Positions 2,350-8,177 of a stretch of 9,456 nucleotides of DNA are shown here, in pieces. The notes under the pieces were generated by a model. The model did no database searches, was not told where the DNA came from, and was given only the letters and a program-made list of their open reading frames with translations. Numbering within the stretch: position 1 is the stretch's first letter; every line of letters starts with the position of its first letter. Both the position numbers and the translations under genes were made by a program. The stretch comes from Rudanella sp. (GTDB taxonomy: Bacteria > Bacteroidota > Bacteroidia > Cytophagales > Spirosomataceae), in the NCBI GenBank assembly GCA_026785985.1, contig JAJAYX010000586.1:1-9456 (forward strand). The letters are read 5' to 3'.

Positions 2350-4821
2350 ATGAACGTTTTAAAGTTTGGCGGCACGTCCGTAGGCTCCGTTGAGAGCATC
2401 AAGCAGGTTATCCAGATTATCGACGATGCCTCACGCGGCACCGCAACCACCGAGGGCCGCAATGTTGCCGTGGTGTTCTCCGCAATGGGGGGCGTTACCA
2501 ACCAACTGATCGAAATTGGCCGCATGGCCGCCAACGCCAATTTAGATTATCTCGATCTGGTTCGGCGGATCGAAGACCGGCACTTCAACGTGGTGAAAGC
2601 CCTGATTCCGGTGAAGGAGCAGAGCAAGGTGTTTGCTAACATCCGGGGTGTCATCAATGAACTCGAAGACCTGCTCCGGGGCGTGTCGCTCATCCGCGAA
2701 CTCTCACCCCGCACCCACGACCTCATCACCAGTTTCGGCGAACGCCTGTCCACCCTTGCCATTTCGGAGTGCATTCGGTCGCGGGGGTTATCAGCGCGAT
2801 TTTGCGATGCCCGGAACCTGATTAAAACCGACGCGCAGTTTGGGCAGGCCGAGGTAAATTATACCCTCACCAACCAACTGATTCGCGATTATTTTGCCAA
2901 CTCCAACAGTATCGAACTGATTACGGGCTTCATCGGCTCCACTGAAAAAGGCGAAACTACTACCATGGGGCGCGGTGGCTCCGATTACACGGCCAGTATT
3001 ATTGGCGCGGCTTTGGATGCCGACCTGATCGAAATCTGGACCGACGTGGACGGAATGATGACCGCCGACCCGCGCAAAGTGACCAACGCGTTCAACATCC
3101 CGACTATCACCTACGCCGAAGCGATGGAGTTGAGTCACTTCGGGGCGAAGGTAATTTACCCGCCGAGTTTGCAACCGGCTTTTGCCCGCAACATCCCGAT
3201 TCGGGTGCTCAACACCTTCAACCCGACGCACGCAGGCACTTTGGTGAGCCGCACCGCCGACCGTCGGCAGTACACGATCACGGGAATTTCGAGCATCGAC
3301 GACATTGCCTTGGTCAACGTGCAGGGGTCGGGCATGATTGGCGTGGCCGGGGTGTCGGCCAAGTTGTTTGGCGTATTGGCGCTGCACCGCATCAGCGTGA
3401 TTCTGATCTCGCAGGCCTCGTCGGAACACTCCATTTGCTTTGCTATCGACCCGCGTTTGGCCGAGCGTGTAAAGACAATTCTGGACGATGAATTTGCCGT
3501 GGACATTGCCAGCGGACACGTGGATAACATCAGTATTGAACGCGAGTTGTCGATTATTGCCACCGTGGGCGAGGGAATGCGGAAATCGTCGGGAATTGCC
3601 GGGAAACTGTTTTCGGTATTGGGTAAGAATGGAGTCAACATTGTGGCCGTAGCGCAGGGATCGTCGGAGATCAACATTTCGATAGTGATTGCCAAAACAA
3701 ACATCTCCAAGGCCCTCAATGCACTCCACAACGTGTTTTTCCAGTCGGAGGCCCGGATGCTGAATATTTTTGTGGTCGGAACAGGCCTGATTGGCAAGAC
3801 GCTGTTGACCCAGATCCACAATCAATTCGGGTATTTGCGCGACGAGAAAATGCTGAAAATCTGCCTCGTCGGGGTGTCGAATACAAAAAAAATGTTGCTC
3901 GACCCCACCGGAATCGACCTCAGCGATTGGCGCGAACGGCAATTAACCGAAGGCGTAACAACTTCATTACCAGCATTTGTCGAAAAAATAAAATCGTATA
4001 ACCTGCCCAACTCGGTGTTCATCGACTGCACGTCGGACAAAGACATTGTGCAGTTTTACGACTCATTGCTTGATGCCAACGTGTCGGTGGTAACACCCAA
4101 CAAAGTGGCCAACTCCGGCTCCTACGCTGAGTATCGCCGGTTGCAGCGCACGGCCCTGAACCGGGGCGTGAAATTCCTCTATGAAACGAACGTGGGTGCG
4201 GGTTTGCCAATCATCAACACCATTCAGGGTCTGATGCTGGCGGGCGACCGCTTCATCAAGATCGAAGCCATTCTGTCAGGAACACTGTCCTACATTTTCA
4301 ACACGTTTCGGTCGGGGGCCAAGTTTGTCGATGTGGTGCGAGAGGCCAAAGAGAAAGGCTACACCGAACCCGACCCGCGCGACGATCTAAGCGGTCAGGA
4401 CGTAGGCCGAAAAATCCTGATTCTGGCCCGTGAAGCCGGTTTCGCCCTCGAACCCAGCGACGTTACGATCAACAACCTACTGCCGCAAGCCTGCATCGAC
4501 GCACCCACTATTCCGGCCTTCTTCGATGAATTGGAGGCCAACAATGCTTACTTCGAGAGCCTGCTAACGGAGGCCGAAACTAAGGGCGAAAAGCTCCGCT
4601 ACGTAGCCACTTTCGAGAACGGCAAAGTGACCATCGAACTCCGGGCGGTGGATGCCGACCACCCCTTTTACACGCTGTCGGGAGCCGACAACATTATTTC
4701 GTTCATCACGGAACGGTATAAAGAGCGGCCCTTGGTGATCAAAGGCCCCGGTGCGGGCGCCGAGGTTACGGCCTCCGGCGTGTTTGCGGATATGGTCAGT
4801 ATTGGTAGTTATTTGGGATGA
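2350..4821 (+). CDS. thrA: Bifunctional aspartate kinase / homoserine dehydrogenase
   Basis: This 823-residue cytoplasmic enzyme catalyses the first step (aspartate to aspartyl-phosphate) and the third step (aspartate semialdehyde to homoserine) of the route to threonine and methionine. The length equals that of the E. coli ThrA/MetL class (about 810-820). The kinase domain opens with KFGGTS (5-10) and contains TMGRGGSDYTA (205-215) and TDVDGMMTADPR (231-242). Two regulatory ACT-type regions follow, roughly residues 315-385 and 398-465. The dehydrogenase begins with a dinucleotide-binding motif VVGTGLIG (475-482), then TPNK (582-585), LSGTLSYIFN (642-651) and PDPRDDLSGQDVGRK with the conserved Lys688. 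No thrB or thrC follows; a toxin-antitoxin pair sits 35 bp downstream, and the last 54 bp of this gene recur after the toxin. The final codons may therefore be of imported origin, although the protein end is unchanged. The leader carries a -7 promoter box and 8-bp repeats; no Thr/Ile-rich leader peptide was seen. Confidence 0.97.
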   Translation: MNVLKFGGTSVGSVESIKQVIQIIDDASRGTATTEGRNVAVVFSAMGGVTNQLIEIGRMAANANLDYLDLVRRIEDRHFNVVKALIPVKEQSKVFANIRGVINELEDLLRGVSLIRELSPRTHDLITSFGERLSTLAISECIRSRGLSARFCDARNLIKTDAQFGQAEVNYTLTNQLIRDYFANSNSIELITGFIGSTEKGETTTMGRGGSDYTASIIGAALDADLIEIWTDVDGMMTADPRKVTNAFNIPTITYAEAMELSHFGAKVIYPPSLQPAFARNIPIRVLNTFNPTHAGTLVSRTADRRQYTITGISSIDDIALVNVQGSGMIGVAGVSAKLFGVLALHRISVILISQASSEHSICFAIDPRLAERVKTILDDEFAVDIASGHVDNISIERELSIIATVGEGMRKSSGIAGKLFSVLGKNGVNIVAVAQGSSEINISIVIAKTNISKALNALHNVFFQSEARMLNIFVVGTGLIGKTLLTQIHNQFGYLRDEKMLKICLVGVSNTKKMLLDPTGIDLSDWRERQLTEGVTTSLPAFVEKIKSYNLPNSVFIDCTSDKDIVQFYDSLLDANVSVVTPNKVANSGSYAEYRRLQRTALNRGVKFLYETNVGAGLPIINTIQGLMLAGDRFIKIEAILSGTLSYIFNTFRSGAKFVDVVREAKEKGYTEPDPRDDLSGQDVGRKILILAREAGFALEPSDVTINNLLPQACIDAPTIPAFFDELEANNAYFESLLTEAETKGEKLRYVATFENGKVTIELRAVDADHPFYTLSGADNIISFITERYKERPLVIKGPGAGAEVTASGVFADMVSIGSYLG
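4768..4821 (+). repeat. Direct repeat copy 1: functional thrA 3' end
   Basis: The last 17 codons and TGA stop of thrA match 5397-5450 at 50 of 54 positions. Differences are at 4803 (T/C), 4806 (T/G), 4818 (A/G) and 4820 (G/A). The first three are synonymous and the last swaps TGA for TAA. Identity stops abruptly upstream of 4768. The distance between copies is 629 bp, and the toxin-antitoxin pair fills the space between them. Confidence 0.95.
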
Positions 4822-4834
4822 AATAGTATCTTCG
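4802..4834 (+). promoter_or_regulatory. Candidate promoter of the toxin-antitoxin pair
   Basis: TTG at 4802-4804, inside the last codons of thrA, is followed after 22 nt by TATCTTCG (4827-4834), a 7 of 8 match to TAnnTTTG. The predicted start near 4841 lies 15 nt before the antitoxin ATG. The TTG is absent from the second thrA end (TCG there), so this upstream element is specific to copy 1. The spacing is at the long end of the known range. Confidence 0.4.
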
Positions 4835-4855
4835 TTCTGCTAAATTAATCTGATC

Positions 4856-5080
4856 ATGAGCCGCCGACAATTGTTAGCTCAAGCCTTAGAGACCATCAAT
4901 AAACTCCCTGAAGAGCGAATCAGCGAGGTCATTAATTTTGCCTCCTACATGCTCAAAAAGCACGAGGAGGCCATATTACAGAAAGGAATTGAACGGCTGG
5001 TAGAGACATCGAACGCCTTTGCCTTTCTGCACGATGAGGAAGACTTATATACGCTGGACGATCTGAAAGAACGATATTGA
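4856..5080 (+). CDS. Antitoxin of a MazF/PemK-type toxin-antitoxin pair (DUF2281-like)
   Basis: This 74-residue protein is predicted to bind and neutralise the toxin encoded directly after it. Residues 10-37 contain ALETINKLPEERISEVINF, the 'leucine-proline-glutamate, then amphipathic helix' pattern of DUF2281-like small proteins often found beside toxins. The C-terminal tail is acidic and ends FLHDEEDLYTLDDLKERY, of the sort that lies over the toxin's active site. No helix-turn-helix is obvious, although the N-terminus (MSRRQ) is basic, so DNA binding and autoregulation are uncertain. The stop TGA (5078-5080) shares its last base with the toxin ATG, which argues for translational coupling and for the pair being a real operon. 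The gene and its partner are poorer in GC than thrA. Start ATG at 4856 is the first in frame. The family name is from pattern memory; the antitoxin role rests mainly on position. Confidence 0.78.
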   Translation: MSRRQLLAQALETINKLPEERISEVINFASYMLKKHEEAILQKGIERLVETSNAFAFLHDEEDLYTLDDLKERY

Positions 5081-5397
5081 TGAAACAGGGCGACCTTGTT
5101 CTGGTGCCGTTTCCATTTACGGATTTATCAGGCAGCAAAATTCGACCAGCATTAGTCTTAATGCACACAACATTGGATGTAACACTTGCTTTCATCTCAA
5201 CACAATTGAATTGGCAGGAGCCAACTGATATTTTGCTGACCCCTGACAGCGTAAATGGGTTGAAGAAGGCTTCCCTTGTCAGGCTTAGTAAATTGGCAAC
5301 TATTGATCTGGTGCTGCTACAGGGCCGGTTGGGAGAATTATCAGCAAACGAGTTACAACAAATCCAGCAAAATTTGCGGACGCTATTTCAGTTATAA
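5080..5397 (+). CDS. MazF/PemK-family endoribonuclease toxin
   Basis: This 105-residue product has the PemK/MazF fold signature: GDLVLVPFPFTDLSGSK (4-20), IRPALVL (21-27), FISTQ (38-42) and the later SLVRLSKLATID block (65-76). MazF-family toxins cut single-stranded RNA at short sequences and halt translation. Arg22 in RPALV and Thr41 in STQ line up with the catalytic Arg29 and Thr53 of E. coli MazF, so the toxin looks active. The frame extends to a TTG at 5077, but the ATG at 5080, overlapping the antitoxin stop by one base, is the natural start. A hand count over 5101-5340 gives 107 of 240 G+C (about 45%), against 70 of 120 (about 58%) in two sampled thrA lines (3001-3060, 4141-4200), which suggests acquisition. 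The last base of its TAA is the first base of the second thrA end copy. Confidence 0.9.
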   Translation: MKQGDLVLVPFPFTDLSGSKIRPALVLMHTTLDVTLAFISTQLNWQEPTDILLTPDSVNGLKKASLVRLSKLATIDLVLLQGRLGELSANELQQIQQNLRTLFQL

Positions 5398-5450
5398 CGG
5401 CCTCCGGCGTGTTTGCGGATATGGTCAGTATCGGGAGTTATTTGGGGTAA
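5397..5450 (+). repeat. Direct repeat copy 2: displaced thrA 3' end
   Basis: A 54-bp copy of the thrA terminus, in frame from 5397, encodes the same last 17 residues (TASGVFADMVSIGSYLG) followed by TAA. It has no start codon and no upstream thrA sequence, so it is a gene fragment. The synonymous pattern of its differences from 4768-4821 shows that both copies evolved under coding constraint, most simply as the ends of two different thrA alleles. It probably marks the original right junction of thrA with its downstream neighbours. Confidence 0.93.
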
Positions 5451-5469
5451 GAAATCAGCCAACTCGCCG

Positions 5470-5477
5470 TATCTTTG
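5470..5477 (+). promoter_or_regulatory. Candidate -7 promoter element before the small ORF and glycosylase
   Basis: TATCTTTG perfectly matches TAnnTTTG and lies 22 bp before the ATG at 5500, giving a predicted start near 5484. The nearest upstream TTTG (5441-5444), inside the thrA end copy, is 25 nt away, longer than usual, so the -33 part is weak. A similar TATCTTCG follows the other thrA end at 4827. Confidence 0.45.
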
Positions 5478-5499: not shown

Positions 5500-5616
5500 A
5501 TGGACTTCATCAGTGCAGCTTATTCTGCCGTGACCGACGAGGTTTTCTTTATTTTGAGCCTCCTGAAAACGCTGAAAGTCCGGGTGGCAGCCATGATTGA
5601 TGAGCGAAATAAGTAA
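5500..5616 (+). CDS. Possible 38-residue small protein upstream of the glycosylase
   Basis: A short frame starts with ATG just after a perfect -7 box and ends in TAA, overlapping the preferred glycosylase start by 17 bp. The product begins MDFISAAYSAVTDEVF, has one moderately hydrophobic stretch (VFFILSLL, 15-22) and a basic/charged end (KTLKVRVAAMIDERNK). Codons look like those of neighbouring genes (CTC, CTG, GTG, GCC, CGG). No family is recognised. It could be a real small protein, a translational coupler for the glycosylase, or a chance frame in a 149-bp gap; the overlap with the next gene supports coupling, but only homologues could confirm it. Confidence 0.42.
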   Translation: MDFISAAYSAVTDEVFFILSLLKTLKVRVAAMIDERNK

Positions 5617-6271
5617 TAACTCTATGCCTATCCCCCACAAACTCCCCCTCTCGTTCTACGAAAACCACGATACCTTAACCCTCTCCCAACTTCTGCTCGG
5701 TTGCGAACTTGTTCACGAAACCCGTGGCGAAGGCCGCACCGCAGGCATTATCGTTGAGACGGAGGGCTATGTTACCGGCGACCCAGCCTGCCACGCCTAC
5801 CGGCGCGAAACCAAACGTAACGCGGCCATGTTCGGCCCAGCGGGGATACTCTACGTTTACCAGATTTATAACCATTACAACTGCATCAACGTTGTGACGG
5901 GGCCTGCCGGGGTAGGTGAAGCCGTTCTGATTCGTGCCCTCGAACCCACCGATGGCATCGACCTGATGGCCCACCGACGGAACGAAGCCTTTAAAACGGG
6001 CTTCGAACGCTACCGCAACAACACCATCGACCCCAATACCGCCGACGGATTCCGAAACCTTTGCAACGGCCCCGGCAAACTGACCATCGCCCTCGGTATC
6101 AGCCGCCACAACCACAATGGCAGCTCGCTCATCAACGGACCTATCAGCATAACCCCCCGCGTTCTGACCGACTTCGATATGGTCACCACCACCCGCATCG
6201 GCATCACTCAGGGTATTGAATTGCGCTATCGGTATTATGTGAAAGGGAATCGGTTTGTCAGTAAAAAATGA
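5600..6271 (+). CDS. mpg: 3-methyladenine DNA glycosylase (AAG/MPG family)
   Basis: This monofunctional DNA glycosylase removes alkylated or deaminated purines (3-methyladenine, hypoxanthine) and starts base-excision repair. In 223 residues the family motifs appear in order: LLGCELVHE (32-40); IVETEGY (51-57), where Glu55 and Tyr57 match the catalytic Glu125 and base-stacking Tyr127 of human AAG; DPACHAYRRETKRNAAMF (61-78); GILYVYQIYNHYNCINVV (82-99); VLIRALEP (109-116); and NLCNGPGKLTIALGI (153-167). The length is typical of bacterial members, and all key residues are intact. The frame reaches a TTG at 5597. The ATG at 5600 is preferred, but the ATG at 5624 (MPIPHKLPLSF) would also give a full domain. 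The gene overlaps the possible 38-residue ORF and converges with the acetyltransferase gene, with 4 bp between stops and no room for a separate terminator. Confidence 0.95.
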   Translation: MSEISNNSMPIPHKLPLSFYENHDTLTLSQLLLGCELVHETRGEGRTAGIIVETEGYVTGDPACHAYRRETKRNAAMFGPAGILYVYQIYNHYNCINVVTGPAGVGEAVLIRALEPTDGIDLMAHRRNEAFKTGFERYRNNTIDPNTADGFRNLCNGPGKLTIALGISRHNHNGSSLINGPISITPRVLTDFDMVTTTRIGITQGIELRYRYYVKGNRFVSKK

Positions 6272-7006: not shown

Positions 7007-8095
7007 ATGGCTAAATCTGATATGGCGCAAGCCGCAGCCAGTGCAACTGATAATAAGTTAAAAGCACTGCAAACAACCATCGAGAAACTCGACAAAGCCT
7101 ATGGCAAAGGAACCGTAATGCGCCTGAGCGATACGAAGGTGATGGACGTTCCGGTTATCTCGACGGGTTCGCTGGGTCTTGATCTCGCGCTCGGAATTGG
7201 CGGTCTGCCACGCGGGCGTGTCGTTGAAATTTACGGCCCTGAATCATCCGGTAAAACAACCCTGACGATGCACTGCATAGCCGAAGCACAAAAGGCGGGC
7301 GGTATCGCGGCCTTTATCGATGCTGAACACGCTTTCGACCGGACGTATGCCGAGAAGTTGGGTATTGACGTTAAAAACCTCCTCATTGCCCAACCCGATA
7401 ACGGTGAGCAAGCTCTCGAAATTACGGAACACCTAATCAGCTCCGGGGCCATCGATATCATCGTGATTGACTCCGTTGCTGCTCTCGTGCCAAAAGCCGA
7501 GATCGAAGGCGAAATGGGCGAAAGTAAAATGGGTCTTCAGGCTCGTTTAATGTCGCAGGCGTTGCGGAAACTGACCGGCGTGATCAACAAAACGGGTTGC
7601 TGCTGTATTTTTATTAACCAGTTGCGCGAGAAAATCGGTGTGATGTTCGGAAACCCCGAAACAACCACTGGTGGTAACGCCCTGAAATTCTACGCATCCG
7701 TCCGGTTAGATATTCGACGGATTGGGCAGATCAAAGAAGGAGCCGACAATGTAATCGGCAACCGCACCAAAGTGAAGGTGGTGAAGAATAAAATGGCCGC
7801 TCCGTTCAAAGTGATTGAGTTCGACATCATGTATGGCCTGGGTATCTCGAAAGTAGGTGAGATTCTCGACCTTGCCGTTGAAATGGAAATCGTGAAGAAA
7901 GCCGGCTCCTGGTTCTCCTATGGCACCAGTCGTTTGGCGCAGGGTCGCGATGCCGTGAAAGAACTGCTGCTCGATAACCCTGAACTGATGGGCGAAATCG
8001 AAGCCAAAATCCGGGCCAAGATCAACGAAGATCAAAACGCCCTCCTCGACCCCGCCGGTGGTGTGGAAGAAGATGAAGGAGTGATTAAAGATTAA
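7007..8095 (+). CDS. recA: RecA recombinase
   Basis: RecA forms ATP-dependent filaments on single-stranded DNA, drives homologous strand exchange, and triggers LexA-type self-cleavage. The 362-residue sequence shows Walker A GPESSGKT (77-84), the catalytic Glu in DAEHAFD (Glu107), Walker [11 protein letters not shown] (151-160), and the DNA-binding loop L2 region from [13 protein letters not shown] to [13 protein letters not shown] (204-231), followed by VRLDIRR. The C-terminus is acidic ([12 protein letters not shown]), as in most RecA proteins. A run of three Cys (198-200) before IFINQ replaces the aliphatic residues of E. coli RecA; such Cys-rich versions are familiar in Bacteroidota. The ATG at 7007 is the first in frame; an ATG at 7022 would remove only five residues. 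It has its own promoter and ends at a strong hairpin, so it is probably transcribed alone. Confidence 0.99.
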
Positions 8096-8115: not shown

Positions 8116-8177
8116 GGAGGGGGAGCAAAGGGAACATGCAATAGCATTTCGTCCCTTTACTCCCCCTCCTCCGTTTT
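8116..8177 (+). terminator. Strong, probably bidirectional terminator between recA and the hydroxylase gene
   Basis: Bases 8116-8133 pair with 8152-8169 in an 18-bp stem with one C-A mismatch (8126/8159). The 18-nt apex contains a smaller hairpin, ATGC (8136-8139) with GCAT (8144-8147). TTTT follows at 8174-8177 for recA. On the other strand a run of six T (8098-8103 as A on the plus strand) lies 12 nt beyond the stem and may serve the convergent gene. The stem is unusually long for a simple terminator. Confidence 0.8.

Follow-up and report, generated by a model that had tools for sequence, protein, structure and literature searches.

The stretch of DNA analysed here, hereafter the window, comprises 9,456 nucleotides of contig JAJAYX010000586.1 from a draft genome of Rudanella sp. 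(891 contigs, 72% complete). It carries thrA, the gene for a fused aspartate kinase / homoserine dehydrogenase, followed by a predicted toxin-antitoxin cassette and then by a second copy of the last 54 bases of thrA. Comparison with related genomes revealed several characteristic features of this arrangement: (i) the two gene-end copies in the window differ by silent changes only, (ii) sister genomes contain the corresponding empty sites, and (iii) similar brackets recur behind thrA and behind other genes, with different cargos. We suggest that the unit probably entered by homologous recombination and brought its own thrA end. The features of the locus are as follows.

2350..4821, forward strand: thrA, the host gene (Pfam AA_kinase, ACT and Homoserine_dh domains)
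4768..4821, forward strand: copy 1, the thrA 3' end in use, presumably unit-borne (50 of 54 bases as in copy 2, all differences silent)
4822..4855, forward strand: leader of the toxin-antitoxin pair (motif search)
4856..5080, forward strand: predicted antitoxin of 74 amino acids (weak DUF2281 and weak VapB-type matches)
5080..5397, forward strand: PemK/MazF-family toxin of 105 amino acids from the ATG at 5080 (PF02452, E 2e-15)
5397..5450, forward strand: copy 2, repeating the thrA 3' end and interpreted as the former host end that stayed downstream (native-side position)
5451..5476, no strand assigned: flank resembling the native thrA flank of locus L062 (alignment)
5508..5620 (end approximate), forward strand: remnant of a gene that is whole (221 amino acids) behind thrA in L062 (L062 colinearity from 5508)

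The two copies mismatch at offsets 35, 38, 50 and 52 of 54. The translation of either copy is TASGVFADMVSIGSYLG followed by a stop codon, TGA in the first and TAA in the second. The next-best 54-base match to copy 1 on either strand of the window reaches 28/54, and a chance match of the two copies is therefore excluded. The starts of the copies are 629 bp apart. The open reading frames (ORFs) between them are two only, neither of them an integrase. The antitoxin-like ORF is complete and overlaps the toxin ORF by one base, and the last base of the toxin stop codon (5395-5397) is the first base of copy 2. The toxin matches PF02452 with 57.3 bits against a cut-off of 23.1, which places it in the PemK/MazF domain family; the profile search returned no NCBIfam match for it. 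Both antitoxin matches fall below the curated cut-offs, whereas the position and overlap of the ORF fit a cognate antitoxin. The leader contains TATCTTCG at 4827, which we take to be a promoter-like motif. A preliminary description of this DNA had reported the silent 50/54 match with its exchanged stop codons, the enclosed toxin and antitoxin and a 629-bp unit, and all of these were reproduced on recomputation. It had also reported a G+C contrast: the cassette is indeed lower (43.5% versus 54.7% for thrA), but the value of about 58% given for thrA was slightly high. The same bracketed arrangement is present in genomes G002 (4 contigs) and G216 (9 contigs), which rules out an assembly artefact.

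To decide which copy is native, we compared the window with L062, a locus with a Rudanella-like thrA region (96% identity in the C-terminal part of ThrA); its record is titled Flavobacterium sp. SUN052, a name that looks wrong. Copy 2 together with the 25 bases past its stop aligns with the thrA end and flank of L062 at 78.8% over 80 bp, and from 5508 on the window is colinear with L062 (79.6% over 2,836 bp), the 221-amino-acid gene being mostly gone. Because the bases after its stop resemble the L062 flank, copy 2 is assigned to the native-flank side, and copy 1, used by thrA, adjoins the cassette. This agrees with the earlier proposal that the old end was left behind. It also rules out the possibility, raised with that proposal, that copy 2 is the 3' end of some other conserved gene, since a native-like thrA flank follows it.

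Empty sites, which the preliminary description had proposed to look for, are present at base level in sister genomes. Spirosoma sordidisoli (L066) is colinear with S. lacussanchae (L067) from copy 2 on (92.5% over 2,891 bp; upstream, 94.6% over 596 bp), and copy 2 of L066 coincides with the start of the L067 colinearity, 57 bases before the thrA stop. Similarly, Rudanella G002 aligns with the empty site of R. paleaurantiibacter (L111) at 85.8% over 1,490 bp from copy 2 on and at 93.5% over 599 bp upstream. None of the sought cargo types lies within 3.5 kb behind thrA in L062, L063 or L111. A long direct repeat of the target thus surrounds the insert and is single in the related genome, as in insertion with long target duplication.

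The arrangement recurs behind thrA. The comparison covered 123 thrA loci that differ from each other within the last 200 bases, from genome collections holding one genome per species; for 58 of them, which form a clade set (Rudanella, Spirosoma, Fibrella and Larkinella), the C-terminal identity of ThrA is at least about 78%. Recognised cargo of three unrelated types follows thrA at 22 of the 58 loci: PemK pairs at 5, DUF433-DUF5615 pairs at 8 in gene direction and at 2 inverted, and Kinase-PolyVal proteins at 7; one of the PemK loci has a Kinase-PolyVal remnant in addition. The search for a second thrA end (E of 0.001 or less, 20 bp or longer) was positive at 14 of the 22 occupied loci versus 1 of the 36 others (L054; Fisher test, 4e-7). 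These 36 include three loci with uncounted cargo, namely L088 (UPF0150-like, below the cut-off) and L215 and L216 (an unnamed protein).

Outside the clade set, a DUF6932 pair at L014 is accompanied by a 24-bp thrA-end copy. In L132 (6620-9830), a PIN pair and a copy of the gene end are followed by a HEC-01-like AAA/DUF4276 defence pair and a third thrA-end copy, the repeat being about 140 bp long. Tandem arrays were found at L132, L196 and L208; the last consists of PemK, a decayed copy, the Kinase-PolyVal remnant and a good copy. In most well-preserved loci the thrA repeat starts about 52-65 bases before the stop, across different cargos, and the homology ends at or near the stop codon. The cargo between copies is toxin-antitoxin-like, of the Kinase-PolyVal kind or a HEC-01-like pair, none of it of the restriction-modification type. 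A leader starting GAATTGTTA(T/A)CTT directly after the thrA stop is common to two PemK cassettes and two DUF433 cassettes (L068, L208, L171 and L074), and this sharing before different toxin pairs hints at cargo swapping.

Two other arrangements were observed behind thrA. In Dyadobacter, a two-gene module (112 and 130 amino acids) lies between thrA and thrB at L090, L092, L094, L104, L108, L110, L117, L120, L121, L127 and L128; the 112-amino-acid product has a weak MntA-type match in L090, and the second-end test detected no bracket around these modules. Two Runella species (L097 and L099) have several palindrome-like repeats (TGGTTTCTCAAAACCA) directly behind thrA.

Besides thrA, panC and no fewer than seven further genes have the same bracket behind them, including one gene in the genome of the window itself. 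Four of the 30 panC loci fetched from Spirosoma (35 matched) carry a DUF433-DUF5615 pair or its remnant, and three of these four are bracketed. The other bracketed hosts include genes for a molybdopterin-binding oxidoreductase, a BNR-repeat protein, an unnamed 84-amino-acid protein, a sodium:solute symporter and a DUF167 protein, and a histidine-kinase-type ATPase gene whose bracket encloses two stacked pairs (MNT/HepT-like and DUF433-like/DUF5615). In the window's own genome, contig C766 (L279, 62-2030) shows an MFS transporter gene, then a PemK-family pair and then 76 bp that repeat the gene end at 97%. The C766 copies have different in-frame tails, VVRKR and VVKWKQ; copy 2 reads GGTQ, as in all three congeners, and copy 1 reads GDTQ. 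Two coding alleles would explain this locus more simply than decay of a duplicate. At L151 (594-2484; genome G135, same family), a PemK pair lies between two repeats (570 bp, 96%) of a stretch with a whole 126-amino-acid gene; this may be the bracket pattern in a longer form.

Brackets away from thrA are enriched at toxin loci. When the windows were equal, brackets were found at 7 of 71 toxin loci versus 9 of 725 control genes (Fisher test, 2e-4), and at 85% identity or more the counts were 5 of 71 versus 0 of 725 (5e-6), all nine control matches lying at 72-82% identity. The control genes were taken from 80 named loci, among which Dyadobacter is well represented, and exceed the toxin genes in mean length, so that the match is imperfect; L162 and L228, at contig ends, were left out of the toxin set. 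When the upstream window was longer than that of the controls, 8 of 71 loci were bracketed, 6 of them at 85%. The remaining 64 of the 71 loci in the equal-window test are unbracketed. Among PIN toxins only 2 of 29 are bracketed, and most toxin pairs are thus unbracketed. A class-wide search fetched 30 PemK loci, of which 25 were tested, the other 5 being too short; the sole bracket was in the window's own genome, and none of the 24 loci from other genomes had one. In 1.56 Mb around thrA, 77 local repeats were listed, and those away from thrA resembled, by eye and from their position and sequence, within-gene or intergenic repeats. Bracket repeats range from 24 to 272 bp across different genes and do not form a constant attachment core.

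The preliminary description had argued that two alleles met, rather than that the gene end was simply duplicated. Among 16 thrA copy pairs (from 18 loci; L198, gapped, and L138, 21 bp, were dropped), 42 codon differences are silent and 17 are not. In simulations of free decay the mean was 23-26 silent of 59, and none of 1000 runs reached 42 at any of three transition/transversion settings. The excess is also seen at single loci (P = 0.025 for the window; P = 0.0008 for G216). Pooled, the copies look like two coding alleles and not like one freely decaying duplicate, as far as codon differences can tell. The earlier argument holds in this respect, but the origin of the second allele is restricted. 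Both window copies carry GCG-GAT, which none of four other Rudanella thrA ends has. The variant is not unique across the family, as had been considered, since 18 other thrA ends of the 123 have it, including one of Larkinella. The sharing of GCG-GAT by the two copies would therefore make any donor allele one of close kin.

These observations lead us to the following scenario, which we consider rather probable: the unit entered by homologous recombination, its thrA end (copy 1) took over, and the previous end of the host gene (copy 2) remained downstream. Because the same conserved gene segment frames the cassette on either side, DNA of an occupied strain would supply both arms for an empty thrA, the thrA body with copy 1 on the left and copy 2 on the right. 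Entry would place the donor end on the gene and the host end behind the cassette. Recombination between copies 1 and 2 would remove the cassette cleanly, and stacking and cargo swap could likewise proceed by RecA-type recombination. Such a route would need neither an integrase nor a shared downstream flank. Through exchange with empty strains, copy 2 would continue to resemble a coding end, and cells retaining the cassette would be favoured by the predicted addiction pair. The first bracket behind each gene would most likely have started by one-sided homology with an illegitimate second junction.

Several observations weigh against this scenario. The test detected no second end at 8 of the 22 occupied thrA loci. 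L132 alone gives P = 0.098 for the silent excess, and copies 2 of L066, L145 and L202 have nonsense or missense changes, as in a decaying duplicate. The shared GCG-GAT excludes a distant donor. On C766, the flank behind copy 2 is unlike the flanks of the congeners. At 54 bp, an arm is close to the lower length limit for RecA recombination. In 31 of 31 PemK and DUF5615 pairs and in 19 of 21 Kinase-PolyVal pairs, divergence is greater in the cargo gene than in thrA, and by this comparison no recent transfer between the sampled species was seen. Toxins within the thrA clades group by genus. The forward DUF5615 proteins at thrA form one clade (7 of 30 rows; support 83/35, weak on one measure), and the inverted DUF433-DUF5615 lineage at thrA (L081 and L201) falls outside it. 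Divergence and grouping by genus would fit both spread and a long stay at the site accompanied by losses. We infer the steps of entry, homing and addiction-based selection; transfer was never directly observed.

The thrA PemK toxins also form one clade (5 of 26 rows; support 90/84), and single thrA toxin clades are as expected of lineages tied to one gene. Other Rudanella and Spirosoma species thus have related toxins at this position, with more divergence than in thrA itself, so that the cassette of the window can no longer be regarded as an isolated or simply recent arrival. This greater divergence makes the cargo appear old at its site; the brackets look young.

The strongest alternative to recombination with an occupied strain is that the insertion duplicated the host's own thrA end, by long target duplication; the copies would then have been identical at first, and gene conversion would have kept copy 2 close. 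It would account for the host-specific variants that the copies share, such as GCG-GAT in the window, and for the closer similarity of copies within a genome (mean 4.7 differences of 54 at seven loci) than of copies 2 between species (12.0); the old-looking cargo and the damaged copies 2 would also fit. Nevertheless, we consider it unlikely: the silent excess was unreached by free decay, the C766 copies end in different in-frame tails, and the end of thrA homology at or near the stop with various cargos would be odd for a blind duplication. Gene conversion or allelic exchange could, however, blur the argument for two alleles from the silent excess.

A site-specific recombinase acting in trans, from a phage or conjugative element, could have used gene 3' ends as attachment sites; the similar start of the thrA repeat in front of different cargos, and the restoration of the gene end as in integrase-target genes, point in this direction. 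For a dedicated integrase beside thrA there was no sign among the PF00589 matches listed for 36 Spirosoma genomes, of which none lies within 10 kb of thrA and the nearest is 46 kb away. No site-specific recombinase or transposase was found among the window ORFs scanned either, in line with the absence of a recombinase noted in the preliminary description. Given also the varied target genes and repeat lengths (24-272 bp; about 140 bp in L132), we regard the action of such an enzyme as quite improbable. Random illegitimate insertions behind genes, kept since the module is addictive and the repeated end harmless, with no homing, would suit the many host genes and cargos and the unbracketed majority of toxin loci away from thrA, but are hardly credible in view of the thrA and panC lineages tied to one gene across species and of the silent excess.

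Returning to entry by homologous recombination, a broader and more tentative proposal is that these units represent an integrase-free mobile element, in which addiction or defence cassettes use the 3' end of a core gene as a portable homology arm and are homed by host recombination, the target gene end never being lost. If this is true, such an element could home behind the same gene in any relative, be removed cleanly, be stacked and swap its cargo, and this would account for hotspots that lack an integrase, for the turnover of cargo and for clean excision. How they might move is not evident for many toxin-antitoxin pairs on chromosomes; in the present case the flanks may hold the answer. The idea would also yield a simple search rule for every genome: look for toxin pairs behind which the end of the upstream gene is repeated.

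Elsewhere in the window, an inverted repeat at 8116-8169 (18-nucleotide arms, 94% complementary) lies just behind recA (7007-8095) and is perhaps a terminator.

In the open-licence literature, covered mostly through titles and the starts of abstracts, we recognised no description of toxin pairs bracketed by host gene ends. Several known systems share some features with the units described here. For core defence hotspots, the parts of the source consulted propose spread by recombination in conserved flanks (PMC10250203). The hotspots as presented there are similar in that defence or addiction genes occupy a fixed core-gene site, and homologous recombination through conserved flanks is proposed; they need both flanks to be shared, whereas here the right arm would be a copy of the upstream gene's own end. 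The cassette of the window resembles the MazEF/PemIK type II pairs in its PemK-family toxin, short upstream antitoxin-like gene and overlapping frames. It differs from them in the antitoxin, which is a weak DUF2281/VapB-type match, and in the bracket by a host gene end, which is no feature of MazEF/PemIK.

The staphylococcal cassette chromosome (SCC) in rlmH is an integrase-driven element in the 3' end of a protein gene. In such elements, as here, the gene end is restored by the element, the old end lies on the far side, and arrays can form; unlike them, the units described here have no integrase, are about 0.6-0.8 kb in size and combine many targets with variable repeats.

Insertion with long target duplication of restriction-modification systems was reportedly described by Nobusato et al. 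in 2000 and by Furuta et al. in 2010. According to the portions of the literature available to us, the target duplications reported for such insertions are long and variable, on the order of 100 bp (PMC3874152, PMC1643837, PMC3031569). Judged from these portions, this kind of insertion is the closest precedent. The differences are that (i) the cargo here consists of toxin-antitoxin-like pairs and one defence-like pair, (ii) the repeated segment is taken from the 3' end of the immediately preceding gene, and (iii) related cassettes stand at the same gene across species, with mostly silent copy differences and with arrays. As far as those portions describe them, the two phenomena have in common a small addiction-type module, long and variable direct repeats of the target, an empty related genome and the lack of any known mobile element.

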